Positions 1 through 59,293 of a stretch of DNA of 64,000 nucleotides are shown in pieces. The stretch is from contig JABSSW010000021.1 in assembly GCA_018902385.1 (NCBI GenBank), positions 124,001 to 188,000 on the forward strand, in the 5' to 3' direction. This DNA is from Physcia stellaris (lineage: Eukaryota; Ascomycota; Lecanoromycetes; Caliciales; Physciaceae). The notes under the pieces are model-generated. The model saw nothing but the letters and a program-made list of their open reading frames with translations, was not told the origin of the DNA and made no database searches. Each line of letters begins with the position of its first letter. Position 1 is the stretch's first letter. The translations under genes and the position numbers were made by a program.

Positions 1-870
1 AAGATCTTAGCTAACGTGGATAGGTTATCCCCGGGAGGCAGGCTCTCTCCCAGGAGACCTGACATCTTTCAATACTCATCAGAAGGATTGGAGCTTTGAC
101 CCCAATAAGCGCCACCGTTGGCCAAAGGTCTTGTTCCAATTCCACAAAAATCTAACCAAACAATGGCTACCACGCAATCTTACCGAGTCTCCAGATGAAT
201 GGAAATGGAATAATCGCCTCGTCGTCGATAGGGACAATAAGTAAACCCCTCCCTTAACCCCCCGGTCTGAGGTTCTATTTCACTAACGCTCTATTACAGA
301 CCATTGAAGAAATGGCCCCTCCTCAACGACACCTGCTCCTCCAAAATCGAAGGGGGCTGCCTGGAAGCCCTCTTCCGCCTGTGTCCCGGAATGAGGGCGC
401 GCGACATCTTCGGCCGCACGCCCGACGTCCCCTCCGTTCCCAAAGGCGACAGCGGCTTCAACGCCCGCCGCAACCGTTTCCGTGAGCAAAACGGTCTGGT
501 CTCTTGGACCTTCCGCACGGGCAGCGAGCCGATGTGGAAAGCCGTCGAGAAGAAGATTGGGCGTTGGGGCTTGCTGAATAACAGCACGGAGAAGTTCACT
601 GGGTTCACGGAAGAGGAGCTGGCGGAGGTGAAGGAGGTTAATAAGACCAGTGCTAAGACTGTCAAAATGACCGAGACGCATCACAAGCGGATGCAGGAGA
701 CGTGGACGAAGCAGCAGCAGAAGAAGGAGCTGGAGCGGCAGCGGGAGCAGCAGAGCGAGAGCGAGAGCGAGGACGATGAGGATGATGAAGAAGAAACAGC
801 AGAAGAAGATGATGATTGTGAGGACAGTGAGGACTACATTGAAGAGGTGGAAGGGGAGGAGGAGGAGTAA
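1..870 (+). CDS. Family-1 protein, copy A (3' part, cut by window edge)
   Basis: Two exons are visible. The first is open from about base 24 to 240, after a possible acceptor (branch CTAAC, then AG at 22-23). The intron is 241-299 (GTAAAC...TTACAG), and the last exon runs 300-870. The protein carries the family-1 core seen four more times in this window: a WKWNNRLVVDRDNKP segment, then IEGGCLEALFR, then RFREQNGLVSW with FRTGS, followed by a tail of almost pure Glu/Asp. I do not recognise the family. The acidic tail suggests a nuclear or chromatin-associated protein, which is inference. The 5' exons lie outside the window, so the start is unknown. Downstream, 871-1,750 holds only 3' flank and short open frames that I cannot support. 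Confidence 0.7.
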
Positions 871-1758
871 AAAGCAAGACGCAAACAGTAGGAGCTCGAG
901 CACGGCCAGGAGAAGGAGGAAAGAAGAAAAAAGGAAGAATAAGAGAATAACTCTCAACCCAAGAGAGATTTGGTGGCAGCGAAGTCATCACATGAGAAAA
1001 GAGCTTATGATTCCGCTCTACATGCTTTGCATTTTACTACTATCACGGCCTTAGCACTAGAGCAATGACTCGAGGATATCCATACTCTCCTCATCGTAGC
1101 TAGTATCAAAAAGTCATAAACATCAGACCTCGCTGTCGCTTACTGAAAATATGTGATGTCCTGATTGTTAGGTGTTGCGGCTCGGAAGTGGTAGAATAAC
1201 TAAGACTCATAGTTTCAGAAGCTCTCGAAGATGGATTAAAGCAGACATGATATCGTAGCTAGCATGATAGCAGAATCACAACTCCTATCATACTTGAGGG
1301 TGTTTCGGATCACATTGTGAAAGGAGGCGAATCACTAAGACATTGAAGCCATCAGCAACCCAGTGTGATCTACTTACCATCATCTTCGTGCTTCGCCAGC
1401 ATCACATTACACAGCATATGTGACTTTCAACATCTCCGCAGTTGTTCACCGACAAAGTCACCGATTCTACGATATTTAGTGAGAGATATGTGATCTTTCC
1501 ATAAGTTTATGTATTCCTTTTCTACCTGTATATAAATCCCGTAGTCCCCCAATTCTCTAGCTCCACATCCTAAGCACTCTTCTCTCATGCTCAGTACGCT
1601 GTTAGGGTCCCATGGCCTTCTACATCGCCGCGCCACCATCCAACTCTCGAACAACTTCCAGTCCCTTTGCACCAAGTCAGTTCTGGCTCAGATGGTAGGA
1701 TCTTGAGGGCTCACCTCGTAATTGGGATTGTGCTTGGAGAGTGGGTGAAGAGATCTTC

Positions 1759-2955
1759 TTAGAGAGATGCAACTTGTGAAGCAAGCAGGTTCATGTACTG
1801 TGCAGCTGAAACGCCGATAACGTGCTGGGGGAGGTAAACGGCAGCAACGTTCTGAGACCAGTGGTTGAACATTGGTGTCATCATGCCGGGAATGTTATGT
1901 GAGGTGATAATCCCAACACGCTGTCCCTTGGTTTGACTTGCTCTTTGATGCACGATGGTCGTAATCTTCCAGATTTTCTCGACTAATGTGAGTCAGCGGA
2001 TGATGTGAAGAGATGATAGAATAGCGAACTTTGGGGCTTACATTCTTTCTGCGTGCGCCCGTTGTGTCTGACCGTGAATTGATTCTTCTTCAGCTTACGC
2101 ATCGCAACCATTGCCGCAGAGTGCTGGAATTGAGCAATGAGCATTGAAATTAGGGCGGACTGGCTATGGTTTGTTGGCCAAGTCAGCAGGAGACTCAGTC
2201 CCGGTCAATTCACGAGCGGGGGACTGTTCGTTCCAGAAGACAGCGTTGCCACCATGTGTTTTCCCTGAAAATAGTGTGATTAGTCTATGAAAGAAAGATC
2301 AAGATTCCGGCTTGAAATCACCTATGCAGGACGCCTTGACTGGTAAACTCCTTTCATAGCCTTTGTACGGGTAACGCTGTCCTTTGGTAAGGAAGTAGAG
2401 CTCCATAGGATAAAAGACGTCCTTCGTTGTCGTCTTCACCAATGGAAGGTTAGGGTCCTGACGACGAACATTGTACTTCTCCAGATAGTACTGCTCGATG
2501 GTGACCTCCTTGATCGGCTCCCCGGGTACAGGTAACGTTGTTCTTTGGTAAGAAACCAGAGCTCCATAGGGTAAAAGAGGTCCTTCTTAGTCGTTTCAAC
2601 CAATGGAAGGTTAGGGTCCTGAAGACGAGCATTGTACTTCTCCAGATAGTATTGCTCGATGGTGACCTCCTTGATCGGCTCTTTTGTAACGCGATCCCTT
2701 ATCTGGAATTTCTTGGTTCTTGGAGTAAGATTAACAATGGCCTTGCTCTTCCAGGTTGTTTCCACCAACGGAGGTGACCAAGAGGTGACCGGTCGGGCCC
2801 GAGACAGTCAAAATAGGAGCGCCGAATGTTGACGGCATTGCGGCTCGGCATCCCACGCACAAGATGATCTAAGAATGTGATGGCCGATATCACGGTTTCA
2901 TCCATCTGGATCTGACCATCAAGGCAGGCTTGAAGTTGATTGAGTTGGATATATA
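1759..2955 (-). pseudogene. Argonaute-like relic, scrambled
   Basis: Read on the minus strand, separate pieces resemble an RNAi Argonaute. Near 2,800-2,890 there is an N-domain-like segment (AITFLDHLVRGMPSRNAVN, then IRRSYF). At 2,366-2,700 there are two tandem copies of a PAZ-like segment (VTIEQYYLEKYNARLQDPN, then FYPMEL). Near 2,200-2,260 there is an L1-like GGNAVFWNEQS, and at about 1,900-2,120 LKKNQFTVRHNGR and HQRASQTK. In a normal Argonaute the L1 pieces precede PAZ; here they follow it, so the order is rearranged. No single frame spans the locus and no MID or PIWI domain is visible. Family assignment rests on remembered motif shape; an Argonaute relic is likely but unproven. Confidence 0.55.
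2366..2685 (-). repeat. Tandem duplication of the PAZ-like segment (2 copies, period about 161 bp)
   Basis: Two near-identical blocks start at about 2,366 and 2,527. Both contain the string ACCAATGGAAGGTTAGGG, followed by a matching stretch around TCGATGGTGACCTCCTTGA. The copies differ by scattered substitutions and small indels. The duplication lies within the Argonaute-like relic and repeats a PAZ-type coding piece. Confidence 0.85.
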
Positions 2956-2965
2956 TGCTAGACGC

Positions 2966-4480
<1,515 letters not shown>

Positions 4481-4740
4481 AACATGGTGTTTCTATGTCT
4501 TTTTGGAAGATGGCAGACAAGTATTGGAAGGATGGTCCGCCCAGCATCTGCCACAAGCTCTCCTAGCTTTGGTTACTGGAGGGAAGCTAGGGAATCCTAG
4601 GTGGCTGCCAATCCACTGGTGAGACTGAATGAAGTAGGCAGCTATTCGCTTCAGGATCCAGGAGTAGCACTGGGCGGAATCGGACAACCGGCGCGGCGAG
4701 GAATGATTGACCGACCGAATGTGACACAGACAGATAGCGG

Positions 4741-6080
4741 GTGCCACACGAGTATGAACATCAAGGACCGGGAGAAGAGGATGACAAAGGAAACGAGGTC
4801 GTGATAAAGAAAGTTGTTCCGGTCTGCGAGGAAGTCAGCAATACATTGGCCCAATCTTTGTCCGACACTGACCAAGCTAGCGGCAAGACTCCAAACCGTA
4901 TAAGGCCTCCTTCTAATGGTTGACCTATCAGACACCGAGAGCGATGAAGCGGACTCCTCAACTTCGACGCAGACGCAGCCATCAGTGGAGAAGAGGAATA
5001 GGAGCTCGGGACGTGTATCCAAGAGTAATGTCAAAGCGGCCAAGGAAAAGATGGCCAAGAGGCGTCCTTGCGGATTATCAACCAGGATGATGCTGGCAAC
5101 CTTTGGATTTGCATTGATGGGATAGCTCAGCTAGGTGGGTCCTGATCCTTGCTGCGCTTGTGGTTATCGCTGATACGGTAGCAGAGCTAATTGTACGCCA
5201 CGAGGATGTCCGAGAAGCCATGCTTGCTCATGCGGTGTCGAAGAGGCAGGGCAATACAGTAAGGCGTGTTTTCTGCAGGCACATGTGGTGGCGCTGATCC
5301 ATTAAGGCGTCGAACCTGACGAAGAAGAACTTGCTAAAGACCGGATATCGTACCTTTACAGCCAGCATGTCTGGCGCCGTGATGAAGATCTCCATAGCTG
5401 ATATTCAACCCAGGATGCTGATCTCTGTAGGTTTCAGCGCGGTGAATGGGATCCTCGGTTGGATCGTGTGGGGACTTCAAGATGGTACGGTCGGGTGGTT
5501 TTAAATAGAGAGGATAAGTAAGCGCTCCCTCTTAGGCATAATGATGGCTGTTATGCGGAAGCTAATGAGTCCACTGTAGACCCATTACCGACTATCCTAT
5601 TATGCCATTGACTATATCCCCGGCAGTTACAAGTCACTGCTGGGGTGTCTCCTCCCTCTCGTATTGGTACTTGACAAGTTCAGAGCTATGCCTCCGTGTA
5701 GTAGCTTGCTGTAAGAATAGTTGCTGACTCATTGTTCCAATAGGAGAGTTGGCGGATGGAGAATATCCAGCGAGTCGATGATCATATCACGAGCCAGGAC
5801 TTCCTGGATCGAATGCCTTCCAAAGCTGTTGGTGGTCTTCCAGTGATAAGACTTCTGCCTTCAACGGCTCGTGGTGTATGAGTACTGGTTTTGACTAGAC
5901 TCTTGCGGTACTGAGTACTAGACGTCAACGTTTTCGTGAGGGGTATGGTCGTGCTCGATGGACCGGTCGTGAAGGAACCCATACTAAGGCCATCCGCGAG
6001 CGCTTGACGCAGGAATAGAGGGACAGAGACACTGCAAATGTTTGTCACCCCGCCTGTTCTCGTCTTTTTGGGAGCCTGTC
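4741..6080 (+). pseudogene. Family-1 relic, copy E
   Basis: The family-1 modules appear in the usual order but are spread over several frames with stops. They are an acidic/basic linker at 4,916-5,060, then NQDDAGNLWICIDG near 5,080, then ELIVRHEDVREAMLAHA near 5,190-5,240. Next come RFQRGEWDPRLDR and WYGRVVLNREDK near 5,430-5,517, then ESWRMENIQRVDDHITSQDF near 5,755-5,810, and finally a weak match to the RFR..NGL..W module near 5,935. Each module matches copies B and C, and an intron-like GTAAGC...TAG at about 5,518-5,579 sits where copy B has one. In-frame stops and frameshifts mean it cannot make the full protein. The stretch 6,080-6,870 shows nothing I can assign. Confidence 0.65.
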
Positions 6081-6955: not shown

Positions 6956-9900
6956 ATGCCGGAGCCGCCCCCTTTAGTCCCAGTGTCAAACGATACTAGT
7001 GGCTTCATGCACCTCTTCACTCACCGGGAAGATATTTCATCCCAGAAGCGGGGTATCTCTACCTTTAGTCCCTGGCTCAAACACTTGTGTACTTCACACT
7101 CCGATATTGAACCCCCTTCAATCACAGATCACCTTTTAAATCGGGCATTGGCTCCTTGTGTAGATCATGGCTTTACAGAGACTCAAGCAAGTGATGAACT
7201 CTGGAACTTTTCATGGAACATCATGTTAGAAAGACCACCTACCTCTAATCCTACTGTTGAACAAATCTTTCCACAGAGCCAAGCCAGTAGAAGTTACCCT
7301 GCTGATATCTACTTCATAAACGCACCATCTACCTTCGCCTATACTACACCTATCTCTTCTAGCACGACAAAAGATCCAGCACATCGGCGTAAAAGTAAAT
7401 TTCAACCCCTTTCTTCAGGAGGTATCAGCTAATTTAGCTCAGATCCCAAAATTCAACCTCTCAACGACGAGTACTACCGAGAGTTTTACGACCCGAGTCT
7501 CGACGCTATGTATCGGCGCCAGGCTCGTAACCATGGCACTCGGAGTCCCGATAGTTTTCCACCACCTGAGCATTCGAGGAGCAATAACAATGAGGTCAGT
7601 ATTACTGACGCGAGACCCACTCAGCGGACTTCCATCGAGCTTGGAGCTTCGCAACAAGCTTCACCAAGGCGTACAGATCGGCAGTCGACGCGTACTGGTA
7701 CCTCCGGCCATAGGTCAGAGCTGAACCGCATAAGGCCTCACGCCAACACGACTTATTCCGCCCGAACACACGGTACGGTCCCTAGTGTGACACCTCGCCG
7801 TACTGAAATGCTTCCTTCCACTGTCCGGGACACACCACCACGTAGTCTACAAAGCATTACTCGGCGAACAACCTCAAGAGAGCCGTCCTCGATTCGCACT
7901 GACGAGGCTACGGCAGACGCAGGGCGTCTTGCACCGCAAGGCGAGAGAGACCGTGATCTTCAACGACGTCCTGAGCGGACTCCTCGTACACGTCCAGGGC
8001 TTTATCAGTCCTCTCGTCTTGAGCTTGGACTGGGCAGCACAAGGATTCCAGCTCCTAGGCTTAGTTCTCAGGGCCGAGGTCGCGGCCAAATGGTTACTAG
8101 CATCGTTCCTCCAGGCGACTACATGCACGCAATGAGAAGCGGTGCAAGTCCTTTCCCGCTAGCATCACGGACTCCAAATTCCCAAGTTCCCTCACTCGTG
8201 CGGACAACTCCAGGTCCATTACCTCTTCCCCGCGTGAACCCCTTCTTAGCTGTCGATGACAACTTTCGACTTCCTCCCATTGTCCACAGCGCGTTTCAGG
8301 AGAGCAACGAGAGGTCAACGGCACCAGTCAAGGAGTCCAGATCACGAGGCAACGTACCTTCTTCACAACCCAATAGATCTGCGGGCTCTTTCGCGCGCTC
8401 AAATGCAACAGAGAAGCCAATGCCTAGCGACCGGAAGCGTCCGCTTCCCGTCGGAAATGGCGAGGACGACAGTGACAGCGAGGAAGACAACGACGACTCA
8501 CTCCCTACAGAAGGACAAGGAGACCCGACGGATGATGATGAGGATGAGAAAGAGACGGAAGATAGCGGTAGGCCCAGCCCATGTAGCTTTCTACGCAAGG
8601 TTTTCCAGCTAATTTGAATAGACACCGACGAGAGTGAGGACAAAGACTCCTCCTCAGCGCCGTCGGCGCCGTCTTCGGACAAAGAGCCGCCGCAAAAGAA
8701 GACCAAGATTGAAACTAAAAAGTCTAGGAAGAGGAAACCCAACCCAAGGAAGCGAAGGACCAAAGCTCGCATTAACCACGGCGAGCTTGAAGAACGTGAT
8801 GATGGCAGTATTTGGTTCCGTGCAGATGAGGACGCATCCTGGGGTGAGTCAAAGAGTCTGTTGTGCTGCGCAACGTCAGTGCTGACGAGTCAACAGAACC
8901 AACCGTCCGCCATGAACCTAACCGCGCAGCCATGATAGCGGATGCTCGAAAAGATCCTCATGATGCGACTCGGGAGAGGAGTTATGGTAAGTGCAAGAAT
9001 GTCTGCACAGCGCAATTCTGAATACTGATTGGACATGACAGATGTAACACCGGCTGGAGACCTCACGGACGCGAATCGTACCTCATACCTCCATTCGCAT
9101 CGTCATTGGTTTTGTCGTCAACCACATGACTGGCACCATCCGACGCTAGATCCAATCTTCTATCGCTTCGAGCGTGGAGACCGACCTTTCCGACAGGACG
9201 CCATTGGGCCACTTCGCTGGCGGGGAAATATTGTCTTGAACAACAACAAACTGTGCGTAGATCAGCACATATTATTCGCAATATGTGGTACACTGACAGT
9301 CATTATTATAGAGTCATCTCAGACTACCCTGATATGCCGCTCACCCTATCATCCAAGATCGTACGTGGACTTCGGATTCTTTCATTTCCATTTTCTACTC
9401 CCAAAATCTGTCTCAATCAATGCAAAACATACGATACTGACACCGAATGGAAACAGGAAGGATGGCGGATGGAAGCCATCATGCGGCTTGATGATCGCAT
9501 CTCCGCTGAAGATTTCCGGGACCGTATGCCGAGTCGGAAGAACGGACAGCCACCTCGTAAGTACCTTCTTGGGTCTTTTATTCTTCTTCCCCGCGGCTGT
9601 CACGTTTCCCGAGTCACGAGGATGAGCCACAAGAGTACTTAGCTACTGGCATGTGTCTGACGATATGATCGAAGCTTCTGAATAAGATCAAGCTAACCGC
9701 GATATCCCTACAGAGGTCGCCTCTGCATTGGGCAACCATCGAAGCCGCTTCCGAGAATCCAATGGTCTTGCTTCTTGGGATGCTAGAGATGGCAGTAAAG
9801 GCTACACAGAAGCCATCCGAGGCAAATTATCTCAAGAACAGAGGGACAAAAACACGACGGAGGTCAGCACCACCCGAACCGACCTTGATGAGCTGTCACT

Positions 9901-10248
9901 GACCACTGTCACATGTAGGGTTTCGATCGGTTGAGTCCGAAGACCCTCAAAGCTATCCGCGAGGCAAACAGGGAGAAGGCCAAAGGCGCCTATTTTAAGC
10001 GTGCCGGATTGAAACTGTTGACTGATGAAGAGCGTCGAAAAAGGGCCGAAGGCAAGAAGCCGACGAGAAGCAAGATTACCTTATCCAAAAAGACTGCAGA
10101 AGCTTCCAAAGCTCAAGCTTCCACAGCAACACAATCCCAAGCTTCCCAAACACGGCAAACCCCGGAGAATCCTTCAGAGGATAACGAGACAGAGGAAGAG
10201 CAGGACGAGACAGAATACGATGGTGATGAGGATGATAGTGCCCTTTGA
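6956..10248 (+). CDS. Family-1 protein, copy B (nine exons, about 904 aa)
   Basis: I model nine exons: 6,956-7,394, 7,443-8,567, 8,622-8,843, 8,897-8,986, 9,042-9,252, 9,312-9,360, 9,457-9,556, 9,714-9,862 and 9,919-10,248. Every junction is GT-AG and the sum is in frame. The chosen ATG follows ACAAATC and lies 70 bp after a TATATATATA tract. The first half is disordered (S/T/R/P-rich) and ends in acidic and lysine-rich runs. The family core follows: GELEERDDGSIWFRADED..SWGEPTVRHE, then YRFERGD..LRWRGNIVLNNNK, then EGWRMEAIMRLDDRISAEDF, RFRESNGLASWDARDGSK and QRDKNTT. The end is again acidic. I do not recognise the family. It is the cleanest copy in the window and probably functional; the basic/acidic composition suggests a nuclear protein (inference). 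The first exon and start are less certain than the rest. Confidence 0.75.
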
Positions 10249-10581: not shown

Positions 10582-11490
10582 TCAGACAGCCGTGTTTCGA
10601 TGGGGTCGGTGATTGTCCTTGCCAGTATCGTAAGGCTTCTTGGCCGTCACAGCGACATATCTTTCAAGGCCGCTCTTTAGTGCGCGATAACCTTCTACCC
10701 CTGCCTGAGTATTCGCAAACCAGGCCTGAAGTCCCAAGAAACAGATGATAAGCCAGGGAATGTATCCCACCAGGAAGAACAGCCGCGCCATAGGCCTGAC
10801 ATTCTCTGAAAGATCTCGAACCACAACTTCCTGAAAGCCTTTTTCCTCGAGCATCCGCTGTAAAGTCCCCTGTGTGAACATCTCGTTTGCTGGCATTGAG
10901 GCTTTCTTGTTGATCTGTCGCAATGACTCTGCCATGTCTTCAGAGATGGGTTTAGAGTCGCGGTCGGGATGATCATACTCGTAGAGAGCAATTGACCCTC
11001 CAGGCTTGAGTACGCGATAGAACTCTCCCAATGCTCTTTCTGGGTCTGTCGCATGTACCAGTGTTTCCATGGTGTAGACGCCTTCGAAGGACTCGTTGTC
11101 CAAACGGTCCAGGTGGTGATAGTCCATCAATTGAACGCTGACTGCCTTCTCTAAGCCCTGAGCCCTAATCTGCTGCATTGCCCACCGTATATGGTTACTG
11201 ACAACATCGATGCCGGTTACCTGCAGCCCTTTGCGAGCCAAGTGTATCGCGACATGGCCGACCCCACACCCAGCATCTAGCACTCTTGTACCTGATTGAA
11301 GCTTCAACGAATCGTATAGATGGTCTTCCATCCGTCGCAATGCACCATTTATGGGGAAAGGCCATTTGGTACCGGGTTCGTAGTATCCGAAATGCCTTGT
11401 GCCTCCCAAAATCAACCGATAGCCAATCCTAGACTCAAGTGCTGCATAGTATTGCTGGAGCGAGGGATTGACATGAATGGGCAAATCCAT
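10582..11490 (-). CDS. SAM-dependent methyltransferase, sterol 24-C-methyltransferase-like
   Basis: A single exon encodes 302 aa. Class-I methyltransferase motif I is clear at residues 70-79 (VLDAGCGVGH), followed by the acidic post-I strand (VTGIDVV). Further along are METLVHATDPERAL and LKPGGSIALYEYD (post-II/III). The ERG6/SMT-like start HFGYYEPGT..WPF is present, and a hydrophobic stretch near residues 235-258 (FFLVGYIPWLIICFLGLQAW) could anchor the protein to the ER or lipid droplets. The family methylates sterol or terpenoid side chains. At 302 aa it is shorter than ERG6 (about 375 aa) and lacks much of its sterol-binding C-terminus, so it is more likely a secondary-metabolism relative than the housekeeping enzyme. 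It lies 15 kb from the squalene-hopene cyclase gene, with only repeats and remnants between, so a role on a cyclised triterpene is plausible but inferred. Confidence 0.85.
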   Translation of the reverse strand: MDLPIHVNPSLQQYYAALESRIGYRLILGGTRHFGYYEPGTKWPFPINGALRRMEDHLYDSLKLQSGTRVLDAGCGVGHVAIHLARKGLQVTGIDVVSNHIRWAMQQIRAQGLEKAVSVQLMDYHHLDRLDNESFEGVYTMETLVHATDPERALGEFYRVLKPGGSIALYEYDHPDRDSKPISEDMAESLRQINKKASMPANEMFTQGTLQRMLEEKGFQEVVVRDLSENVRPMARLFFLVGYIPWLIICFLGLQAWFANTQAGVEGYRALKSGLERYVAVTAKKPYDTGKDNHRPHRNTAV

Positions 11491-11831
11491 GATTTTTGAA
11501 CCACAGGTACTTCTACTACGAGAAGAGCTGGGTCAAAGTACAAGACGGTGCTGCTTAAAGCAAATAACCTGCTCTACCCTTGATTCGCTAGTCCGCTGTC
11601 AGCTTGGGAGTTGAGATCGAGTCCGTTGCTGGTGGTTTGAGAAGGCGAAAAGAGGATGGATTAAAAACCCCTACGCTATGAGTGAGAGACACTTACCTTA
11701 AGGTACTTTGATCAGTAGTGAGTTCATCCCAATTTTTGGGAATCTCCACACTCCCTGTCCCCCAACCCTAGGTAGCCCTGAGGCTGCTATGCCCAATCGG
11801 GCAGTAGTGCCGCCCTCCCGCAGGGCTTTGT
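11491..11831. promoter_or_regulatory. Upstream region of the methyltransferase gene
   Basis: This stretch precedes the minus-strand methyltransferase ATG. I see no convincing TATA box or operator. No coding content is evident. Confidence 0.35.
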
Positions 11832-14488: not shown

Positions 14489-14637
14489 TACGTCTCTCTT
14501 TAAGCATCGAAGTCTCTTGAAATCAACACGCTAACAGAAATTTTGACGTATTTTGCTTGTCTTGACGTGTTTTGTTTGTCTTGACTTTGCATTGATTTGA
14601 AAAATCACTATGATCGTGATTTTTATTGAAAGAATCA

Positions 14638-17727: not shown

Positions 17728-17836
17728 ACCGATTGCTGTACTGCCCGACGGCTAGGTACTACGTGCTCATGCTGTAGCTGGTACTAGATGTAGCGAAAGC
17801 TGCTAACCCGGTTCTCATAACCTATTAAAAGATGTA

Positions 17837-18031
17837 TGGGTGACTACCATTCTATTGCTCTGAATCTCGTTATTCTAGTAAGTTACATGCAGGTGGGAGC
17901 ACAAGAAGTGTGCGGGTGCCAAGGCACTAGTCCCAACAAGGACGCACTAGTCCTGCTTTCGTCAGGTTATACCAACTGGATCCTGACTGCATCACCTGCA
18001 CAGCACATCTGCGGAGGCTGTATTTCCAACA
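17837..18031 (-). repeat. Nested element LTR, right copy
   Basis: This 195-bp direct repeat is the partner of 14,638-14,832 and is the 5' LTR in the minus-strand orientation. Confidence 0.9.
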
Positions 18032-21000
18032 ATTTTCGCATTTCGAAATATTTTTGTCCGAATTCAATAGTCAGTTTGCGTTAAAAATCTGAGAAAACAT
18101 CTTCTTGAATGACTCAGAAAAAACATAATTTGATGAATCAATTGTTTTCTTGCTTTTCGTGATCGAATGTTTGATTTCGTATCATTCACAATTTTCGATA
18201 TGATGATTGACAGCTAATTTGTTGACAGAAAATTTTGAATTCGAACATTTTTTCATCTTTTCATTTCTTTATTTCGAATATCAACATCGATATCATGAGA
18301 AAATGTGTAACGCGATAGACGCTCACTAGTCGCGATCGCATTGATATTCAAATTTTCGAAATTTTTTTTATTTCATTTCACATCTTTTATTCAACGACTC
18401 ATCGTTCGATCAAATCGAACAACAATCTTTGAAAATGTTTTTGACACAATTCAGTCTTTAAATGCGTCGTAAATTCTAAACAATAAATAACACACAAAAT
18501 CTTTGAAAACGAAAATGTGTTAACATGCAATAAATATTTCAATTCATTTTCTTTTTGACTTTCGATGATTTGTTTTCTTATTGACATCAAATTTTTCGAA
18601 TTCTCGTTATGAAATTGTCGCAAAGTTTTTCGAAAATGCTTGACAAACGATGCAAACTTTCAAATCGCGTTTTCATAATTTTTTCACTTCACGAGATAAT
18701 AAAGATCGAATTCGTTGTAAAACTTGTTTGAAATCTCATTTGTCTTGAAAATTTTGTTGTTTTTGATGATTTCGATTTCATAAAACTTTTTCGTGATTTT
18801 CATTTTCATGTTCTCGTCGAATTCAATATCTTCAACTTGATAAAAAAATTCAGAAAAATGTGACGTATGCGCGTTTTCTTTTTTTTTTTTTAAAATTAAA
18901 TTTTTCAGAAAAAGACGTGAAAGACGTCGTGAATGCGTCAGCGTTTGAATAAATTTAAACGATAAGCTTGATTTTCTATAGTTTCGAAAATCTGAAATGA
19001 TTCAAAAAATTTTCATTTCAACTTTTTGTTTCGCTTAATCTTGATGTTCTTATCGTTCAAATTCACGTAATTTTCGACGTTGTATGACATTGATTTCGTG
19101 CGCTCGTTTTTATACATCGTTTGTTGTTGTTGTGTCACGAGTAAATTGTTTTTCAGTACTCGAAATAATTCAACTAAATGTTCAGCGTGTTTCTTTGCGA
19201 ATTTGAATTTAGTTTTCTTGTTTCATGTTTTCTCGAAAAACATGCGAAATGAATATTCAAGCATAATTTCGAACGAAAAAATGTTTGTAAATGCATGTTT
19301 GTTGTTGTTGTAAACGAATTCGATCATGAACAACAACTTTATTCAATCATTTTGCTCGAAATTGACGAAAACACGAAAAAATTGTTTCATGACGTTGTTC
19401 ATTCGCTCGATTTGTTCATCAATTTGAAAATGAAAAACGATTGACAATTTACGTTTGATTTTCAAGACGTAACACAGTGCATCGTTGTATTTGAACGTGA
19501 AAATGTTTCTTCTGTCGATGACGATTGACGAAAAAAATCGTGAAATCGAATGACTTCGCGAAATAGAATTTCGATCAGATTTTTTGCGAAAATCGTCTTA
19601 ATTATTGATATGTAATGAATCATTTTCGTTAAACGATTCACAATCATTAAAATCGAATCGTAAATCGCTTCATTTCATGCTTTATTTGAAGAAAGTTTTG
19701 TCACGAAATTCATGAAAAGATCAATTCACTTAAATTCAGAAATCGAAAGAAAAAAGAACTCGTCGTATGATTTGTGTCGTGCAATCTTGTTTCGTTTGCA
19801 GACGACGCATGTTTCACAATGCTTCTTGATTTGCTGTCGCATTTCAAAAACTTCGATAGAGTTTTGATTCGATCAATAATATTTTCGACGTATCAGTTTC
19901 AGCGTTCGTTCGATGTCGAAATGATCAACGAGCGAGTTATCGTGATGTGCACGAATAACGTTTTCACGCAAGTTTTCTGAAATGTAAACGACATCGTCGT
20001 AATACAAAAGTTCATTTTTGTGTTGTCAACTGTTTGTTTTTGCTTTCGAAATAGCTAATTCTCGACATACTTCAGAAACGAATTGATCTTTAACGATCAA
20101 GTCACGAACGAAATTCAACAATGAAAATGTTGACTCGTCGTTATATGTCGTTTTCTCTCGTAAAACAGTTTGTATTCGAATTTTATGCATTGCGCACTCA
20201 AATACAATCGTTGATTTTAACACAAAAATTTTTCACTTTATGAATGTCACGTCTGACTTTTGTTCAATCGAGTGTTTCGAATTTTTTGAATTCTTTGAAT
20301 CGAATGTTTCCGAAGCAACGCTGATTGAAATTCGATTTCGCTTTGAATTTTTGAATCAAATGTCTTCGAAACAACGCTGATTGATTCGATTGTTGAGTCA
20401 TTTAAATGCGATCGACGTTTCATGTTATGCATCGCACTCATGAATCGTTTCATGACATGCATCGCATTCATAACTTTGATCGCATTTATTCGCATTTTTT
20501 CGAAATGTTTCGAGTTTGCGATCAATGATTTCTGCAATTGTTTCAAGATTTGACGATTGTTTTCGACGTCTCTCTCAGTAATCATCATGTGATCAAATCG
20601 TTTTGAGAATTCGTCAACAAAATTCTTGTTATCGAAACGATAATCGATTAAAAAATTATATCGACTCAACTTTTGAATTCATCGAATCTGACGTGACGAC
20701 AATTTAATTGTGATCATAAATTGTTTCAAATTGCGATGATCAATAAAAACAAAAATTTGTTTCTTTGCGTTTTCGAAATAATGTTTTCATTGTTTGAACG
20801 AAATCACAATAGTCAGCAACTTTTTGTCATGAATTTCGTAATGACATTCGGTCGAAATCAATTTGCGCGAAAAATACGCAACAAAATGTCAATGATTCTC
20901 GTCGTTTTGTTGACATAGAATGATTTCAAAAGTCTTGTCGAATGCGTCGATTTCGACTCGAATAACACGCTCGAGATCGAAATGACGTAAAATTGATGCT

Positions 21001-23907: not shown

Positions 23908-24227
23908 TGTAAAACTCGTATTAAAAATAGTATAGTTTAATGAATTATTGACATCAGAAATGTATAATTTGAAATGTAATATATTGATTTATTAATCGTT
24001 ACAAAACAAATTACGTTTTGCAACTGCTTTTTATTCACATTTTATTTATTCAATCGTACGAATTCGATCGACTTCGATTGACAATATGAACTTGTTGAAT
24101 TTATCGTTGATCGAATTGTAAAATGATTGAGATTGATTTTTTTCGAAATCATTCGAACTTCGATAATCGAATTGCTTGACGAAATGCGAATCGCACTTTC
24201 GGAAATTTTGAATTCTTATTTCTTACA
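23908..24227 (-). repeat. Gypsy element LTR, right (5' LTR in element orientation)
   Basis: This 320-bp terminal repeat is the partner of 14,169-14,488 and is more strongly AT-shifted. The target duplication ATTTT follows it directly. Confidence 0.9.
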
Positions 24228-29005: not shown

Positions 29006-29424
29006 AATGAGATTGGTAGTCTAGGGAAGTGCCCTCTGGTATGATCCCAGCACAATACAGTATAACGAAAGAGAGAGAAAGAAATATTGCGAGAGACTCG
29101 GCTGAACAGAATAAGGCTTCCATACTACAAATGAAGCAATGCAGCGAGTCAGAGAAGGCACCTAGTCAGGTGCTAATGTCTTTAGTGTGAGCAATACGTG
29201 CAATACCGGGACAGCCACACCTTCATAGGAGCGTTCGGCTCAATTGTATGTCATCATAGATACATACCGGACTTCGTGCATTATCAACGGTCTAGAACTG
29301 TAAAGCTACCAGGACCAGCTGCAGAATCCGGACGCACTCATTTGTGGAGTATTCCAATGCGAGGATACGTGGGTATGTCCGAGCAAATGTTGTGCCCGCT
29401 GATTACTCAATGAACAGAGATTGG
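29006..29424. promoter_or_regulatory. Upstream region of the cyclase gene
   Basis: About 420 bp of normal composition separate the cyclase ATG from the next fossil repeat, so its promoter must be short or must include repeat sequence. No defined box can be supported. Confidence 0.4.
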
Positions 29425-30083: not shown

Positions 30084-30420
30084 CGTCGGACGATCCCCCG
30101 TGCCCGGAAGTGGCAATGATAAACCGACTTTCCGGAATCTGACATCGTATTCTGAGATGGTGTTGAACGCCGGCATCCTTTTGCGGAAATCTGGACAGGA
30201 TCTTGTTCCCCAATAAATGTGATACGATAAACACCACGTTCCAAGCTCTGACCACTCGGATGACACCGCTTATAGGAATGACACGCATCAATGCGGACCC
30301 CGACAGTGTTGTCTTGCGTGTGCAGCACAGGAATTGACTGTATCTCGGAAACCGTGAAACGAGATGTCATTATTGCACGAAAAAGACTGAATGTGTTTTC
30401 ATCAAACTTCAATAGAAATG
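30084..30420. other. Unassigned stretch
   Basis: This is normal-composition DNA between the truncated repeat and the AT-rich block. The short open frames have no recognisable content. Confidence 0.4.
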
Positions 30421-31900: not shown

Positions 31901-32328
31901 CTAGTCACGTGCAATCTGCCAGTTGGCTCAACTATCGATTTCGTTTAACTTTTCTCCAACAATTTTCGACTTTCAATACAGCTAGCTCGGCCCGGCTATC
32001 ACTATCGAGCCACGCGTTCTCAGATGACCTTCACCCTTTCGAAATATGTTCTCATCGTTGTTGGAGTGGCATTAGCCAAAATTGAGGGTTACGTCGCATC
32101 ACCAACCGAACGTCGATATCGATAGTACATCATGCAAATGTAATACCGGCATATGTTGGGGCAAACTCAGAAGGTGGTAATGGATCGACCTTGGTTTGGC
32201 CGAATCATCCGCGATCAGCTTGACGTATTGTAATTACATGAAGGTACGATATTCTCAAGACAAGATTCCTCACCTCCTGTTCCCTCGAAATACCATAGCT
32301 GATATTGATAGATCCAAGAATCTCAAAC

Positions 32329-39738: not shown

Positions 39739-42700
39739 ATGTCTGATTCCAAGTACCCAACACCATTTCAACATGAGACAGACTCCGATAACGTAAGTCC
39801 TGCATCACTATTAACTGGTTGGGAGTCTTCTGTTGAGTCTTGGTATTAGGGCCCTTGCGGATCTATGCGAAGTCGACGTGTTAGTCATGCCACCAGTACA
39901 CAGCAGCAAGCAACGAAAAAAACTCTAAAGAACCGAATCCAATCCCAGTCAGGTCACTCAAATACCGGTGCTTCAGGCAGGCAAGACAGGACACCAACTC
40001 ATAGCCCTAGGGGTAAAGTTTCGCATGTCCCCTCTAAAGAAACAGATGAGGGCGACTTTGTCCCGTATCCTCGCCAGCAGTCAAATATTCAAACGAGTTA
40101 TAATTCTAACCTAGCACCCCGGCAAGATGAACATTTACGAAAGGATGGGGTTGTGAGAGTGTGGCCAGAGTATGACGTGAATGGACTCCCTTTTCTTCGG
40201 GCTATTGGAGACATGAAGCGCACGCGTATCTTCCCCGAGTTCAAAGAACATGGCAATGCATATATTAGACTGAGTGAGATAGATGGTCTTGACATGTACA
40301 CGGACTACCAGTCGGAGGGAACACCGTCAGAAAGGTCGCAGAAGATCCTACTGTCTTCTCGAGGGCAACAACTAGACAGACCTTCTCCACCAAAACAGCA
40401 TAGCCGTCATCCAGAAGTAGCCGAGAATCGAGAGGGTCTTGGAATGTTTGCATCTGTAGTGCCATCGAATAGCGGTTCCACCGATAAAATGAGTCGTACT
40501 AAGAGTCCAACGAGTCGGGCAATAGACCAAGGGCAAATAATTCAAAGGCCGAGATCTAATCTCAACCAAAGACCACAAGCAGCCCATCAGCAAGCAACCA
40601 GAAATTTTCTAGAGTACCCTTCTATTAACACGCGCAATGATTTGATACAGCATCCTAGCCAGCCAGTAACACCGCAACGTAGCACAATAGCACATTCAAG
40701 CCCGGCGCCTAGTGGCAAAGTGAATCGGTCCGGCATCCAAGCTACAGGTAATTCGCTTAACTCTACAACCCGAGCCACGTACCAAAGCCCAAAGTCAACG
40801 AATGTTGCGGTATCCAGGGAAGGGCCGTGTTCTGCAGCTGGTCCAAAGATGTCCCAACAAGACGGCCGGTATCAGCAAACCAGGGTATCGAACTCGAGCA
40901 CGCCGCAGCTGAATCATTCTACAATACCACAGTCCCAACCACGGGATAGAAACCCAATGACAAGCGGTGAGATTCGACCTGTGAATCAACCATACCAATC
41001 ATACTTACAGCCAATAGACAGTAGGCAGACAATGAGCGCTTCTCCTTCACCTTATCAGATTCAGGGTAACCAGGCCGAATTATCCAGAAACCCGTACATG
41101 GACAATGAAACGTTGGCCAGGCCGTACCTGCCTTCTCAAGATAATCAGCAAATGCCGGCGCCCCAGCTTTATGGCGCGACCCCACAGATGTGTTGGCCCT
41201 CTCAAGAACTGGACTTGGACCAAATGCCGCCCCAATTCGTCCATCCAACTCTCTATCAGCAATTCTATGAACAGTCCATGCCTCAGCCTGGGACAGATGA
41301 CCTGGATTTGCTAAATTGGTCAAAGCGAGCTCGTGGGCCCTTAGGGCAGACTCAGAGTCCTTTACCTACTTTTTACACACCGCCAGTACCACAGATAAGA
41401 CCGCAGATGATGTCCAACCTAGCCCCTCCTGTTTCTGAACGTGTGCATCGGAGCCCACTCGACTACGTGGCTACGCCAAACTCTCACAATCCCAACTCTA
41501 GCTACAGATCACCATACATCCTTGGCAGCACTCCTGAGGCAGCAAATGTCTCTCGCAACAGATCACCATATATCCTCGGCAGTACGCCTGAGACAGCAAG
41601 ATCACCATATATCCTCGGCAGCACGCCTGAGACAGAAAGATCACCATACATCCTTGGCAGCAGTCCTGAGACAGCAAAGGTGCAGCAAACACCGAACAAC
41701 AACGTGTCAAAACCTTATGGTAGGGCACAAGGCCATTTGTTGGGGGTAGCAAACACCACTAATAATGCATATACACCTTCGTATTCTCTATATGGTCCGC
41801 AGTATTCCCATCAGGTACCTAACCCATCTTCAAGCGTTCAAGAGCCAGGTGTACGGCCTGTTACAATCATGTCGCAGAAAATAGCGGTTAACGATGAGGG
41901 TGGACAGCAGTATCTCGCTGAAGGCAGCTCGTATCAACGACCTTATATTCTTGACGACGAAGATGGTCTCCAATCAGAGACTCCGCCTCCGGTAGTGAGC
42001 AGTCAAAAAGACCAGTCACCTACGACCAAGGAACAACTACAACCCCTACCTCGGCCTCCGACATATTATGAACATACAGGGGGCACGCTTACCAACCAAC
42101 CCCCATGGAGGACTGGAGTAACCGCCAATATGGACTTCAAGACGAAGACCTTCATCGATGCGCACGGTGCAACATTCGCAACCAATAAGTGCGGACCATA
42201 CCGCTTTGTCAAGCCGAAGAACCGAGATCAAGAGCTGGCGATCATCAAAGCAACCTATCAAACAATCGTCGACTTTGAATTGTACCTTGGCTATTCACCT
42301 CAAGGAAAGATTCAAACCTGGAATAGTAGTTACGATGAACAGTACGTTCAGCTGCAGCGTGAGCTAATACAACAATGGTACGTAGATTTCCGGCCGTTTT
42401 TCATCTGTCCCATCTCGCAAGGTCATACTGACTTCCCTATTTTACTCAGGACGGGGCCATGGGAGCTGATTCCTAAACTGCGGTACGTGGAGGGATGGTA
42501 TACAAGCCTCGCTGATCACTCAGCGCCTACACCACCTGAGCCGGATAGTACAGGAAACAAATTTGCTTGGTGTAAGCCCGGAAGCACTGAAGGAAAGCCC
42601 TGTTTTCATCACAATTATCAATTCTGGCAAGAAAGGGGTTGTGTCCGAGGCTTGGAAGAGCAGTACTGGCAAGATCATGGCAATGCGTTCTTCGCAAGAG

Positions 42701-42801
42701 TTGAAGCTACAAGCACGCACGTATCTGCGGGCAATTACGCTGAGGAAGACTGGAAGGAGCGTCGGGCGAGAATGGAAAGAGCCGGACGACAACAGCGGTG
42801 A
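39739..42801 (+). CDS. Family-2 protein G1, Q/N/P-rich with conserved C-terminal domain (1,001 aa)
   Basis: Exon 1 is 39,739-39,792, the intron 39,793-39,849 (GTAAGT...TTAG), and exon 2 39,850-42,801. About 740 residues are disordered and rich in Q, N, P and S, including four copies of RSPYILGSTPE at 41,505-41,680. The C-terminal domain (about residues 770-900) starts near TKTFIDAHGATF. It contains CGPYRFVKPKNRDQELAI, YVQLQRELIQQWYVDF and a VGPW-like TGPWELIPK. The same pattern recurs in the next two genes, so I call it family 2; I do not know its function. The low-complexity part could drive condensate or prion-like behaviour (inference). The reading frame is long and unbroken, so the gene is probably active. 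Confidence 0.8.
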
Positions 42802-43177: not shown

Positions 43178-43906
43178 CTACCCCTCTCTGATTTCGCTCC
43201 CCTTGCTCTCGATCTCCATTTCCATTCCTTCTCTCCTCTTCCTCATCCTGCTCCCGACGTCCATTCTCATTGCCATCGCGTTCCCCGTCATCAAAAACCG
43301 CCACTGCTCATACTCCTCCCAATTCGTCCCATCATATCCCCACAAAAGCGCCTCCACCTCCCACTTCGGCTCCACAAAATCCCAAAGCCCTCTCCTCCAA
43401 GGCCCCACGCTCACCAACCTAGGCGCCAGGTTCTTGGGTCCTTTCCACCACTCAACCAACGCGTTTTGAATAAATTCCCACTGCTCGTTGTAGCTCTTCA
43501 TCCGATCCCCGGTCCACCGCGGCACTTTCCAACCGACCCACCCGTCAAAGTCTTTCCACGTGTAGCTCAATGCTTCTTGAAGCATGTTCGCTTCGGGAAT
43601 GTCGGTGGGGGGTTTGAAGCGGTAGATTTCGGGGACCGGATCGTGGAAGATGTTGCCGTTGCTGGAGACGTAGTAATTTGGAACACGGGTTGCGTTGGGC
43701 CAGATCCCGGTCTCGAGGGGGCTTCCAGGAGGGAGAGGAATGTCGGCATAGCTGTGGTAGTTGTAGTAAGTGAGGGGGTCGGGGGCTTTCGGGGCTTCGG
43801 GGGCTTCGGGGGCTTCGGGGGGGTCTGGGGTCACGGAAAAGACGTGTTGGAATTGGGCCATGTTTTGTTGTTCTGCACTGGGAGTGGCAGGGGGTCTTGG
43901 TGCCAT
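43178..43906 (-). CDS. Family-2 protein G2 (about 242 aa)
   Basis: The minus-strand ATG at 43,906 starts MAPRPPATPSAEQQN, followed by a Pro/Glu/Ala repeat (PEAPEAPEAPKAPDP). The family-2 domain is then YYVSSNGNIFHDPVPEIYRF, MLQEALSYTWKDFDGW, YNEQWEFIQNALVEWW and LAPRLVSVGPWRRG, closely parallel to G1 and G3. Downstream of QW (near 43,308) a second frame reads a more protein-like, acidic tail (NISRAWNEIHNSRPYWDDEH) ending at 43,074. Either the gene has a one-base shift there or the short basic tail in the first frame is the real end. A possible acceptor (ATTACAG at about 43,975) hints at an upstream exon. Convergent with G1. Confidence 0.65.
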   Translation of the reverse strand: MAPRPPATPSAEQQNMAQFQHVFSVTPDPPEAPEAPEAPKAPDPLTYYNYHSYADIPLPPGSPLETGIWPNATRVPNYYVSSNGNIFHDPVPEIYRFKPPTDIPEANMLQEALSYTWKDFDGWVGWKVPRWTGDRMKSYNEQWEFIQNALVEWWKGPKNLAPRLVSVGPWRRGLWDFVEPKWEVEALLWGYDGTNWEEYEQWRFLMTGNAMAMRMDVGSRMRKRREGMEMEIESKGSEIREG

Positions 43907-44257
43907 GCCGATGCGACAAGGTCTGCCTCTTTTTTTCCTGTTTTGGTTACGCGGTTCTCCATTGGTGAGAGAGCTGTAATCGGGTAATATCAAGTCAAAG
44001 TATTAGACCAGAGCTTTTCGTCTTTCTGAAGGTGTAACAGATCGTAGGTAATCATGATGTGTGTGAAATATGTTCCTGAATCATCAATCAGTGTCAACAT
44101 ACACGTGACTGAAGATAGGAAATTTCTCTAGCCGGTTTCCTATTACCACCACAAATCTGGTTTCTGTATTAATTCCAACAGGACTTTGACTTCTACTGAC
44201 TGTTGCATCGTAGTATTAGCGAATTTTCCTTGCCTATTCTGATCTAATTCAACCAGT

Positions 44258-45821
44258 ATGCAATACTATCACGACGACGAACAGCAAGGCATCGCTGATT
44301 TGGAGCACGACAACCTTTCAGTGGATCCTCAATTCTATGATCATTCTCAGCAGGCTCATTCTATGCAATCTTCCTCTTCCACCCAATGCAATGAGCCAGA
44401 ACCCGCTTGGACGACTCTGGAAGAAGTTCGTCCTTTGCAAACCAATCCTGGCCAAGCGTTGACTCCTCTAATTTACCAGCAGCAAACCTGTACCTACGAG
44501 CAGCCGTCAACCCCATTCACACGGCAGAGTATGTAACCCTCGAAGTAGTTCAACGCTTGGCCGTCATGGGAAAACAGAACGATAACTGACTGAGATATCA
44601 GACTATTCGTATCCAGCACGGCCAAGTCAAACTTACTTGTACGGGCATTCAATTCAAGGTGAGTGACTCTGGCCTGGAGGCGTTCAACGCTTGGCCGTGT
44701 ATGGAAAAAGAAACGATAGCTGACCAAGGCTATAATCAGATTCCTCATATTCAGGACATCCAAGTCAAAATGACCCATACGAACACGCCACCCCACGTGA
44801 GTCTTTTTAGAACAGTTCAACGCTTGGCCGAGTATGGAATCACTGACGGATTCTTTACATCCAGCTGAGAACTCTGTGTTTCATCCACAGCAAACGCTCC
44901 AAGAACGGGCAGACGGTGATTCATTGTATTATCCAACTTACAGCAGTCCAAATTCTCAACCTGTCAGCCCACCATACGAGTACCCAGACCCCAGTTGTGG
45001 GGCCGCATTCAGAACGGTTGGCCATGTCAACGAGTACTCAGCGCCCTATTTCAAATACGATAGGACTCCTCTGTATCATTCGCCTGCAGTAGCCACTGAA
45101 CAAGGTACCCACTTGGTAATATTTTTACGGCCAAATCTGGGGTACTGACGAGCTCTTAGACCCTTATCCACATTCCCCGAAAGGTCACGAAAGTATTAGC
45201 CCTTGTTCCATTTTCAAGTTCTACATCACGCTAATCGAGTATTTAGCTCAAAGCATGGGATCCAATACGATCCAAGAAGAGGATCACCTCACAGCCCCCC
45301 CGATTCCTCGTCTCTCTGATGAGGAGGTAACTGAGCTTTATGACCAGGCGAAGAAGAACTTAGCGCTTTCTAAGGTGCCAGACATAAAGGATAGATCTGT
45401 TTACGGGCTCCAGGTAAAAGGATACAGGTGGTTGTATCGTAATAAGATCCGAAAGAACAGGTTCTTGGGCCGCATGTTCCGCGGATCATCAGGAGAGCTA
45501 TTTAGTGGTGAAGACGGTGGAGGATATCGATACTTGATTCCAAGTACGGCAGAGGATAGGGCGTCAATTTCCAGAGCTTTAGAGCTCACTCGGCGAGACT
45601 TCGTTACAATCACGGGCAAGGAGGCTCCCCTGACTCCACCCGAGACGAGCTATGAAATTCAGTACCACTCGTTGCAGTTGGAGGTGGTGAAGATGATGGT
45701 TTGGGAGCAAGGCCGTATAAGAATACCCAAGTTGGTCTGCGTAGGACCTTTCGAGATCGGGTTTGAAGATTGGACGCCCCCTGACCCTTCGCTGCGGGTC
45801 ATAGAAGCGGAGACTATTTAG
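44258..45821 (+). CDS. Family-2 protein G3 (six exons, about 407 aa)
   Basis: Exons: 44,258-44,528, 44,602-44,658, 44,740-44,796, 44,865-45,104, 45,160-45,183 and 45,247-45,821. All are GT-AG and the sum is in frame. Exons 2 and 3 are both 57 bp in the same phase and encode related peptides (YSYPARPSQTYLYGH and SSYSGHPSQNDPYEH). The three introns around them share GTTCAACGCTTGGCCG, so an exon-intron unit has been tandemly duplicated. The N-terminus is Q/S/P-rich. The C-terminal exon holds the family-2 domain: YRYLIPSTAEDRASISRALE, LTRRDFVTI, YHSLQLEVVKMMVWEQGR and PKLVCVGPFEIGF. Function unknown. Confidence 0.75.
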
Positions 45822-55728: not shown

Positions 55729-58700
55729 ATGTCTGCTACTCACAACTTTTCCAGCAACACCGTGCAGAATGACAGCTTCGGTCCTGACGTTGCCTACGCA
55801 CAAGTTCCTTATGCTGCTGAGGAGCGACCTTTATCAGATTATGGCATGACAACCGCCAACGGATACAGTAAGTTGATGGTGCCACGGATGGCTAATCGCC
55901 CAGGTCGTACCCTATGTTGCAGCTGATCGCGTCTCAGATTATCCAGCTTCATTTTATGGCAACGGATACAGTAAGTTGATGATGGCACGAATAGCCAATC
56001 ACCCGATACACACTCTATGTTGCAGCTGATCGCATCTCAGATTATCCAGCTGCGTTTTATGGCAACGGGAACTTTGAAGTTCAGAACAGCTATCCAGACC
56101 CTTCCGCCTTCGACATGAACATTCCACAATTCAACAACGATCAGGGCAACGCACAGCCTAGACACTATGATGGCTTCGTTGATACTGGGTCATTCCCAGT
56201 GAGTGCACCAGGTCCTGCTCCAGTGGATGGGTATGGACAGGTCAACCAGCCAATGAACCTGCAACAGGATGCCGCAAGTGATCAGGACGAGAACCAACCT
56301 ACTGGAAGGACCTCGGGTCCCAAGAAGGGAAAAGTTCGCGACTCAGCAGCGGGCTTGTGGCTAGAGTACAAGGGCCCTAACTCTAATGAATGGCGTAAGT
56401 TTCCAGGTTGTAGCAGGTCTGATAGTCAAGTGCTGAGTTTTGTAGTTGCCGCTGTTCGTCACAGCGACATCCGAGACCAGCTGCTTCAGGAGTCAGATCA
56501 ATTAGCTGCCCAATATGGAGGCTACGGTATACATATTCCACCTGAGATTTTTGAAGGTTATTAATCGTCGATAGATATCCAGCCCGCAAAAGGTATCGAC
56601 GCGCATGATAGGACCGCTTTTGTCCCCGAACGTACGTTGATCTTTTGACACTCTCTTCTTCTTTCGCACAGCTGCACCGGAAAGTCCCATTTCATGAGAT
56701 GCAGTGCTTAGCGGGCGACCTGAAATTTGTTGTTTGATCCAAACTTCCTGATTGTGAAACGCTGACTTGAAAATTCTGACAGACAAGACTTGGGGCCTTG
56801 CTCGGGTGAATCGGCCTGCAATCAACTTCATCTTCTCCAAGCCAAAGCGAGCATTAGAGGCTCGCATACAGCCAAACTCCCAGCCAACGCCATGGGTTTG
56901 GAACGGATATATCGTCTTGGATCATGAAGACAACCCCATGAGGTTGTTCGACGACTGTCCAACCACGTTGGTAAGCCAGTCTCAGTCTAAATAAGCACCC
57001 TGAGCAGGTAGTTCTGACCTTTCAACGTACTTAGGCATCATGCTTGGAAGGCTTTAGGCTCGATGCAATCCAAAAGCGCAATCCCCAAATCCAGACAAAG
57101 GATCTGCTAGGACGGCTGCCGCGCGAGCACAGGGTCCGCAAAGCTTCAGACGATACCTTGACTGTAGTCCCGCGAACCTCTGGTCCGGGACTAACAAATG
57201 TCGCGATGAGATGGCGATGGCAGGCCGGAATCCTCTCTTGGTCACGGAGGGCAAATTCAGATGGCACCCGCAAGTTCCTGGAGCAATTTCTCACCGCCGA
57301 TCAATTGAGGCGGAACACTACGCGCGGTAGTAGAGATCTCACAAAGGCGGAACTCGCAGAGCTATACGAATATAAGAGGGAGTTCAATCGGGCCCAAGAA
57401 CAAAAAGCAAAAATTCCAGAGCCACCGCGGAGAACTCCACATATGGCAGCGGCCCCCAGAATTCCAAGGCATCGTAGGCCTAACACCGCTTCCACATCGC
57501 ATGCGGACTTCCAGACTGCTCAGAGCCAGCAGGTTGACCGGCAAAGCTTGAATCATAGAAGCTATGGAAACGGGCTCAGCTTGACTCACCCATTTGGACC
57601 CTCAGGCATTGTTTTACCATCCAACCAATGTCGTCCTATTCAGCCAAACAATGATCAGCTTGGTGGTACAGGAGGCCCCACCTTCCTTGACGATGGTAGT
57701 TTCCTTGATGATGGTAGCTTCCTTGATAATGGCAGCTCATCACCATTGGACATTGTGAATCTGGGGACAAATAATTTGCGAAAACGCCGTCACGCTGAGA
57801 TGATAACGCCGGACGATGACGAGTCAAGCCCTTTCCAGTTACAGGCGCCTAGTCCATATCATGAGGACGTTCACACTCGAGGCCCTGCCCCAAAGAAACC
57901 TCGACTCGACGCCGATCCTCTTCCGAAATCCTCGCCAGAGAAACCGCCTCGCCATTTTTCTGCACTTAAGTCAAATTCGAGAGAAGGGTCCAAACACGAA
58001 GGGATGAGAGCAGGCCCGGCTTTCTCGAGACTTAAAGAGTCACGCTCTAGACCTTCAGACAATGGAGTTTCCAGCAATCCTGCTAACAGAGCAGGTCACC
58101 ACAGCGGTCTCCACCAATTGCGACAAGAAGCTCAAACATCCGGATACCAGATCGAAGTGCCTGCGGGATTCGGGGCCGTGTTCTTCCCTGTCGGCGCAGG
58201 AATCACATTCTTCGCCACCACTGACACAGAAGCTTCCTTCGGATACGTTAGATCGAACAATGAGACTAAATGGGAATCAATGCCCCTGAGAGTCGTCATC
58301 CAGTACCTCCAAGACAAAGATCCACATCAGGACTATGAACCTGGAGTACTACACACCACTCAAGGGTTTCAAATTGGGCCCGACGAATCGCCTCTTGATG
58401 TACCTTACCGCATCAGCAGTCGCGAAGGATACGGGGTAAAGATGTTTCCGGTCGGAGCGCTCGTCTTCTATTACAGTACCAAAGACCGTACAGCATTTGC
58501 TGGTCGTATCTCGCCCCAGGATTCTACGGTCTGGAGCAAAATGTCGTGGGAAGTCACGATCCGTACCATGCAAAAGATGGAAAAGCGATGGCTGGGCTCG
58601 CTCCAGGATGGCTCGAATCCACAAGGATCAGAACGCCACTCGGAAGTTGCACTTATAGCGCCTTCGGAGGAGAAATTTGATAGTACACCACAAGATACTC

Positions 58701-59293
58701 CATCAACTTCATTCCACTATCCAGACTTTCATGCTCCGACTACAGAGACAACACCTCAGGAGCAAAACCCGCCCGTCCTAAGTAGGGATGAGCTGATGTT
58801 ACTCTGGGATAGAGTTGATGCGGCAGACAGCCAAGTCGTGCATACGACGCAGCCTGAAAGCGGCGGACATTTCCCTCCTTCGCCGAACCACGCTGAGGCA
58901 CACATACATCCACAGCCGAATCTAAGTGGCGGGATCTACGAGCATGGTGACAACTCTCAGGGACAAGCAGGCATGCATGGTGCTGAGATGCCCACCAACC
59001 TCGAAACTAGTCCGAGCATGGCACCTCATGAAATCGTGGAATACTCAGCCGAACAAATGGCACATATCAAGAGAGAGTATCTCGAAAATACTCGCGGTCT
59101 TGGCGCTCAAACCGCATATGAGGTTTTTGCGCCGCCGGTGCTCGATATCCCAGAGACACATATCCACGAAGTGGACCATGTTGAGTCTGCTGATTTCACA
59201 CACGGCAGTCAATTTTTAAGTCGACCAACATTGAAATTCGAAGACGTTGTCGCATACAACATGGCTAGGGGGCTGCCGCCACTTTCAATTTAG
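55729..59293 (+). CDS. Family-1 protein, copy D, with long C-terminal extension (about 1,040 aa)
   Basis: Seven exons: 55,729-55,867, 55,923-55,970, 56,026-56,394, 56,446-56,526, 56,593-56,631, 56,783-56,970 and 57,035-59,293. All are GT-AG and the sum is in frame. Exon 2 and the start of exon 3 are near copies (TDRVSDYPASFYGNGY), and the two introns beside them are both 55 bp and alike. The core is GLWLEYKGPNSNEW, then AVRHSDIRDQLL, WVWNGYIVLDHEDNPMRLF, LEGFRLDAIQ, RWRWQAGILSWSRR and QLRRNTTRG. The last exon adds about 550 residues: a disordered part with SFLDDG repeats and two tandem copies of a roughly 65-residue module (IEVPAGFGAVFFPVGAGITF and ISSREGYGVKMFPVGALVFY). Function unknown. Confidence 0.75.

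Follow-up and report, generated by a model that had tools for sequence, protein, structure and literature searches.

What are the proteins whose genes recur along this stretch of DNA, how far does their family extend, and what might they do in the cell? The window, by which we mean the whole 64,000-nucleotide stretch analyzed here (C21:124001-188000), lies in a 43.97-Mb genome assembly of 147 contigs, and a preliminary description had proposed that it holds five copies, A to E, of an unnamed multi-domain family. The short introns and the gene content are evidently those of a filamentous fungus. Splice models for the copies were built manually at first and later with a purpose-built profile aligner that takes splicing into account.

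The first question is whether the five copies are related at all. Scored against the full profile, A reaches 237 bits, B 276, C 307, D 290 and E 84, and the best non-family reading among the controls (n = 60; 30 stretches of 1.5 kb, both strands) is 19.9 bits. When each tested copy is left out of the profile, although the alignment columns were built with that copy included, A, B, C and D score 149, 153, 187 and 181 bits against a control maximum of 18.6 (16 stretches), and E scores 77 bits with a profile that never contained it. The shared homology of the five copies is thus borne out, and the matches persisted far above chance when aligned formally. Copies H, I, K, K2 and M were absent from the profile used to search selected stretches of the genome and yet were matched, their best stretches ranging from E 5e-16 (I) to 0.006 (K2). 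Two candidate rows were removed from the family: one on C40 (E 0.02), whose reading proved to be a different protein that we take to be kelch-like, and one on C14 (E 0.136).

Five is the right number for the window and not for the family, which has at least 16 core copies in the genome: 14 on C21, spanning 195 kb (95.7-290.8 kb), a partial copy P on C46, and an intronless copy J on C50 (Table 1). This count is a lower bound, obtained by searching the genome with core copies and by scanning selected stretches with a profile; of the 714 kb of C21, the stretches available were 64-208, 214-224 and 281-291 kb together with small loci, so further copies may exist. The first core exons of copy A lie just 5' of the window edge, at C21:123.8-124.0 kb; this copy is untruncated, and the window boundary simply cuts across the gene. 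The start codon of copy B is uncertain, as an open frame further 5' starts near 6.96 kb.

Table 1. Core copies (A to P) and dom2 genes, with contig positions in kb and coordinates within the window in bases.
Feature	Contig position (kb)	Window coordinates	Strand	Remarks
Copy F	C21, 96			
Copy G	C21, 120			
Copy A	C21, 124	exons 24-240, 300-870	+	core gene; splice-aware alignment
Copy E	C21, 129	4700-6015	+	decayed core copy; in-frame stops; one aligner run 5321-6015, another longer
Copy B	C21, 132-134	7508-10248; exons 7508-8567, 8622-8843, 8897-8986, 9042-9252, 9312-9360, 9457-9556, 9714-9862, 9919-10248	+	core gene; eight exons
Copy C	C21, 160-162	36344-38421; exons 36344-37040, 37088-37288, 37347-37415, 37462-37669, 37722-37755, 37900-38421	+	core gene; six exons
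Copy D	C21, 180-183	55700-59293; core exons to 56394, then 56446-56526, 56575-56631, 56783-56970, 57035-59293	+	core gene; 397-aa extra end
Copy H	C21, 215			
Copy I	C21, 220			
Copy O	C21, 277		-	
Copy N	C21, 279		-	
Copy K	C21, 282			
Copy K2	C21, 286			
Copy M	C21, 290			
Copy P	C46, 136			partial
Copy J	C50, 294			intronless
dom2 gene		39850-42801	+	983-aa open frame; dom2 residues 778-890; leave-one-out E 0.0047
dom2 gene		43178-44002	-	274-aa open frame; dom2 residues 114-227; leave-one-out E 1.8e-8
dom2 gene		45120-45821	+	233-aa open frame; dom2 residues 131-231; leave-one-out E 4.1e-12

What is it that these copies share? The preliminary description saw four separate modules with disordered stretches between them, but copy J carries the whole core in a single 490-aa frame, uninterrupted by introns, so the modules form one continuous core of ~220 residues. 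The very different stretches that had been noted do exist; they are long, unalike parts that lie outside the core rather than between modules. Similarly, the EWGEP block that was said to open the shared sequence is a splice artefact that arose from reading into a phase-1 intron; once spliced, the residues at this site are W-E-P in B and C, W-L-A in D and W-R-H in A. Eight core columns are identical in 14 copies (E and P omitted), namely T46, W55, D136, R140, R163, W173, N198 and T200. Copy E is partial, with the aligner covering core positions 13-193 of 221. Copy D is, as claimed, the extended copy of the window: a genome search with its 397-aa end at E<=1 returns copy D alone, and pairwise comparison with the end of copy I (E 0.025, 169 columns, 21% identity) is only suggestive of a relationship. 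The idea that the C-terminal repeats of D are extra copies of the first core module was also considered and rejected, with an hhalign probability of 0.2%, no better than 30 column shuffles. In the 5' part of the same gene (window 55857-56062), a 103-base unit, by eye an exon plus its intron, is repeated head to tail at 84% identity.

The gene structures tell the same homologies at the level of introns, which had been reported at common places and phases and are found there. Phase-1 introns fall at core positions 9 and 32 in A, B, C and D; over the wider family, the one at 32 is placed exactly in 11 of the 13 copies that span the site (the exceptions being J, without an intron here, and E, whose intron is at 36), and the one at 9 occurs in eight of nine, J again being the copy that lacks it. 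A phase-2 intron at position 100 is common to A, B, C and E. Ten copies (B, C, D, E, I, N, O, K, K2 and M) carry a phase-0 intron at 112-117, six of them at precisely 112; A, F, G and J lack it, and the intron that H and P carry at this place is in another phase. Some introns of copy E are unlike those of the other copies. Positions and phases are also common to copies absent from the first profile. Copy J could have arisen as a retrocopy or by loss of its introns.

How did the family come to be so concentrated? The proposed local expansion stands. Fourteen of the 16 copies lie within the 195 kb of C21, and a FastTree tree of the 16 cores pairs neighbours as sisters: A with G (124 and 120 kb; support 0.926), B with E (0.928), and H with I (215 and 220 kb; 0.993). 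F and J are also sisters, and K, K2, M, N, O and P are set apart with support 0.999. The decay that had been proposed for one copy is seen in the in-frame stops of E. Tandem-expanded birth-and-death gene families are a general kind in fungi, and the core family shares these features with them: clustered paralogs with sister neighbours, decayed members (E with its stops, P partial), and divergent ends around a conserved core. The core family differs from that general kind in its multi-intron conserved core, a linked second domain family, and the lack of a library name. Core identities to copy C of 26-41%, together with third codon positions that are mostly 59-79% different between copies, indicate that silent change is near saturation; the fast pace that had been suggested for birth and death stays a conjecture. 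The third codon position is the most divergent in 56 of 56 pairs (two sets of eight copies, 28 pairs apiece), an excess that is consistent with constraint at the protein level, although this test leans on an alignment guided by amino acids. Parts of the cluster have closer relatives elsewhere. Copies P and K share 90% identity across 280 bases, and 262 bases on C46 match the dom2 gene at 45120 with 80.5% DNA identity; close relatives of part of the cluster are therefore present on C46. There, at ~123-145 kb, sequences related to the 45120 gene and to core copy K are found together, with short stretches that are 80-90% identical in DNA. CpA-directed repeat mutation was considered as an engine of divergence and rejected, since these C46 relatives carry no excess of such changes.

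The surrounding DNA has features of its own. In an AT-rich repeat block at window 18001-24000, there are 11 CC/GG dinucleotides against ~284 expected, with CpG O/E at 2.67 and TpA O/E at 0.40, and a mutated rDNA copy at ~45.9 kb of contig C41 is similarly depleted of CC/GG. In the 5.8S portion of that copy, compared with a functional sequence, C-to-T changes affect 3 of 3 CpC, 7 of 10 CpT, 1 of 19 CpA and 0 of 16 CpG sites; in other words, the changes appear to target CpC and CpT instead of CpA. Repeat-induced mutation in most fungi prefers CpA (PMC2621366), so the CpC/CpT context is unusual. A second AT-rich stretch (window 30001-32000, GC 0.27) contains 52 CC/GG dinucleotides against 72 expected and, not being CC-free, points to an origin other than that of the 18-24 kb block. 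Squalene-hopene cyclase frames on the minus strand, a cytochrome P450 frame and, farther off, a methyltransferase, which together occupy window 26698-34131 and 10582-11532, make up a possible triterpene gene cluster within the core-family cluster. Window 2365-4108 holds tandem repeats of helicase C-terminal fragments in units of 161, 171, 213 and 84 bases.

Does the core belong to a family that already has a name? The preliminary description knew of none, and proposed a profile search of Pfam as a check. With membership taken as a score above the family cut-off or a clear E-value, the core has no qualifying match in Pfam, NCBIfam or PHROGs. The best core match in Pfam is DUF7188 (E 0.085, in one of 14 copies), the other weak ones being at E 0.18 or worse, and seven core copies searched against NCBIfam and PHROGs had no match. 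Against PDB sequences, the best values were E 0.36 and 0.074, which we treat as chance. Single-protein queries of viral and prokaryote collections, which could detect close relatives only, found none, and a search of the literature on such families found nothing about this one. An AlphaFold model of the core is helical with a pLDDT of 59.8, its input being window sequence only, about half of the core; a fold search with this low-confidence half-core model returned two matches (best E 8.9), none naming a fold. By eye, the helix, RM and R-R-W layout of the second half of the core resembles Clr5 (PF14420), a short, helical fungal domain that is thought to bind DNA. We rejected a Clr5-like core, however, as profile comparison gave a probability of 2.1% over 7 columns; a genome search for Clr5 had 13 matches, none of them at C21:94-291 kb.

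A second unnamed domain, which we call dom2 and which is new here, accompanies the core. Copies F and J end in it, and their ends align with three core-less window genes. The pairwise links are weak (E 0.004-0.84), so the case for dom2 rests on profile tests: leave-one-out profiles recover five of five carriers (F at E 6.2e-6, J at 5.1e-4), the best further frame every time is C50:292378-292578, just before J (E 0.0006-0.025), and all other frames in these searches are at E >=1.2. Dom2 is thus probably a real shared domain, least surely for the 39850 gene. Residues 151-232 of the 45120 gene have a 77%-identical relative on C46, and dom2-type sequence occurs on C21, C46 and C50, every one of which holds a core copy. 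Among PDB sequences the best dom2 match is UPF0736/YjbA (E 0.03), treated as chance, and the dom2 structure model has a pLDDT of 41.9.

What, then, might these proteins do? We looked for signs of a nuclear role in 13 proteins or last-exon frames (nine copies being represented by the last-exon frame only; G, E and P excluded). Import-like motifs follow the consensus K-K/R-x-K/R, and 16 are observed in the 13 copies against ~4.3 expected. At least one is present in 9 of 13 (absent in A, F, K2 and N) and in one of five control proteins, and the motif is individually significant in D, H, K and O. Acidic stretches beyond those of shuffles (p<=0.05) occur in 8 of 13 copies, the exceptions being D, F, H, I and N, versus none of five control proteins. 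F and N have neither sign, and nuclear signs are weak in the fused copies, J and F. The analysis shows the homology of the core, the gene structure, the expansion, the coding constraint, and the fusion and co-location of dom2, whereas we infer a nuclear location, contact with nucleic acid or chromatin, a core-dom2 partnership and a regulatory role. Our leading reading, to which we give a probability of roughly 40%, is that the family consists of regulators that act in the nucleus and were multiplied in tandem, their core being partly helical and their chains bearing acidic ends and basic signals that resemble import signals. The basic stretches would bring each protein into the nucleus, the conserved ~220-residue core would grip nucleic acid or a chromatin partner, and the acidic, probably disordered ends would carry out the action. 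Dom2, being fused in F and J and core-less in three window genes, probably works with the core, in the same chain or as a partner. The cluster would have grown by tandem duplication, with copies reaching other contigs as the C46 segment and the intronless C50 copy. Against this reading, neither the low-confidence core model nor the comparison with Clr5 revealed a DNA-binding fold.

Other explanations deserve to be weighed. An ordinary unnamed family spread through related fungi would fit all of these data. In a genetic-conflict locus, the copies would be genes for recognition, incompatibility or drive that turn over rapidly, and the dom2 proteins would serve as their partners or antidotes; diverged clustered paralogs, decayed copies and two linked families together on three contigs are what such a locus might leave, but in Pfam no domain known from incompatibility or drive is matched, and the fusion of dom2 to the core in two copies is unlike a separate antidote, so we consider this unlikely. 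A broader proposal, that the core and dom2 families, joined or close to each other on three contigs, make up an undescribed nuclear two-family system diversified by conflict, with a core fold new to structure databases, strikes us as improbable. Could the family instead be mobile-element cargo, or a domesticated protein spread by an element? Copies on three contigs, one of them intronless, and the window's AT-rich repeat blocks, which contain sequence of reverse-transcriptase type, speak for this idea, but introns common to most copies and neighbours that are sisters, as tandem duplication would leave them, make it quite unlikely. Finally, secreted effector-like proteins of a host-associated fungus seem highly improbable, for although fast-diverging clustered paralogs near AT-rich blocks are a known setting of effector genes, the long low-complexity ends are acidic and basic, and the N-terminus of copy C is, by eye, polar.

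Returning to the reading of nuclear regulators, should the core prove to be a new chromatin or nucleic-acid-binding domain, it would be a missing entry for fungal domain catalogues and would explain a gene cluster that is otherwise blank in annotation. Additionally, the occurrence of dom2 both in fused and in separate genes predicts a physical partnership with the core. And if this is merely an unnamed clade-wide family, it would still be a clear-cut example of local expansion, traceable through its introns.
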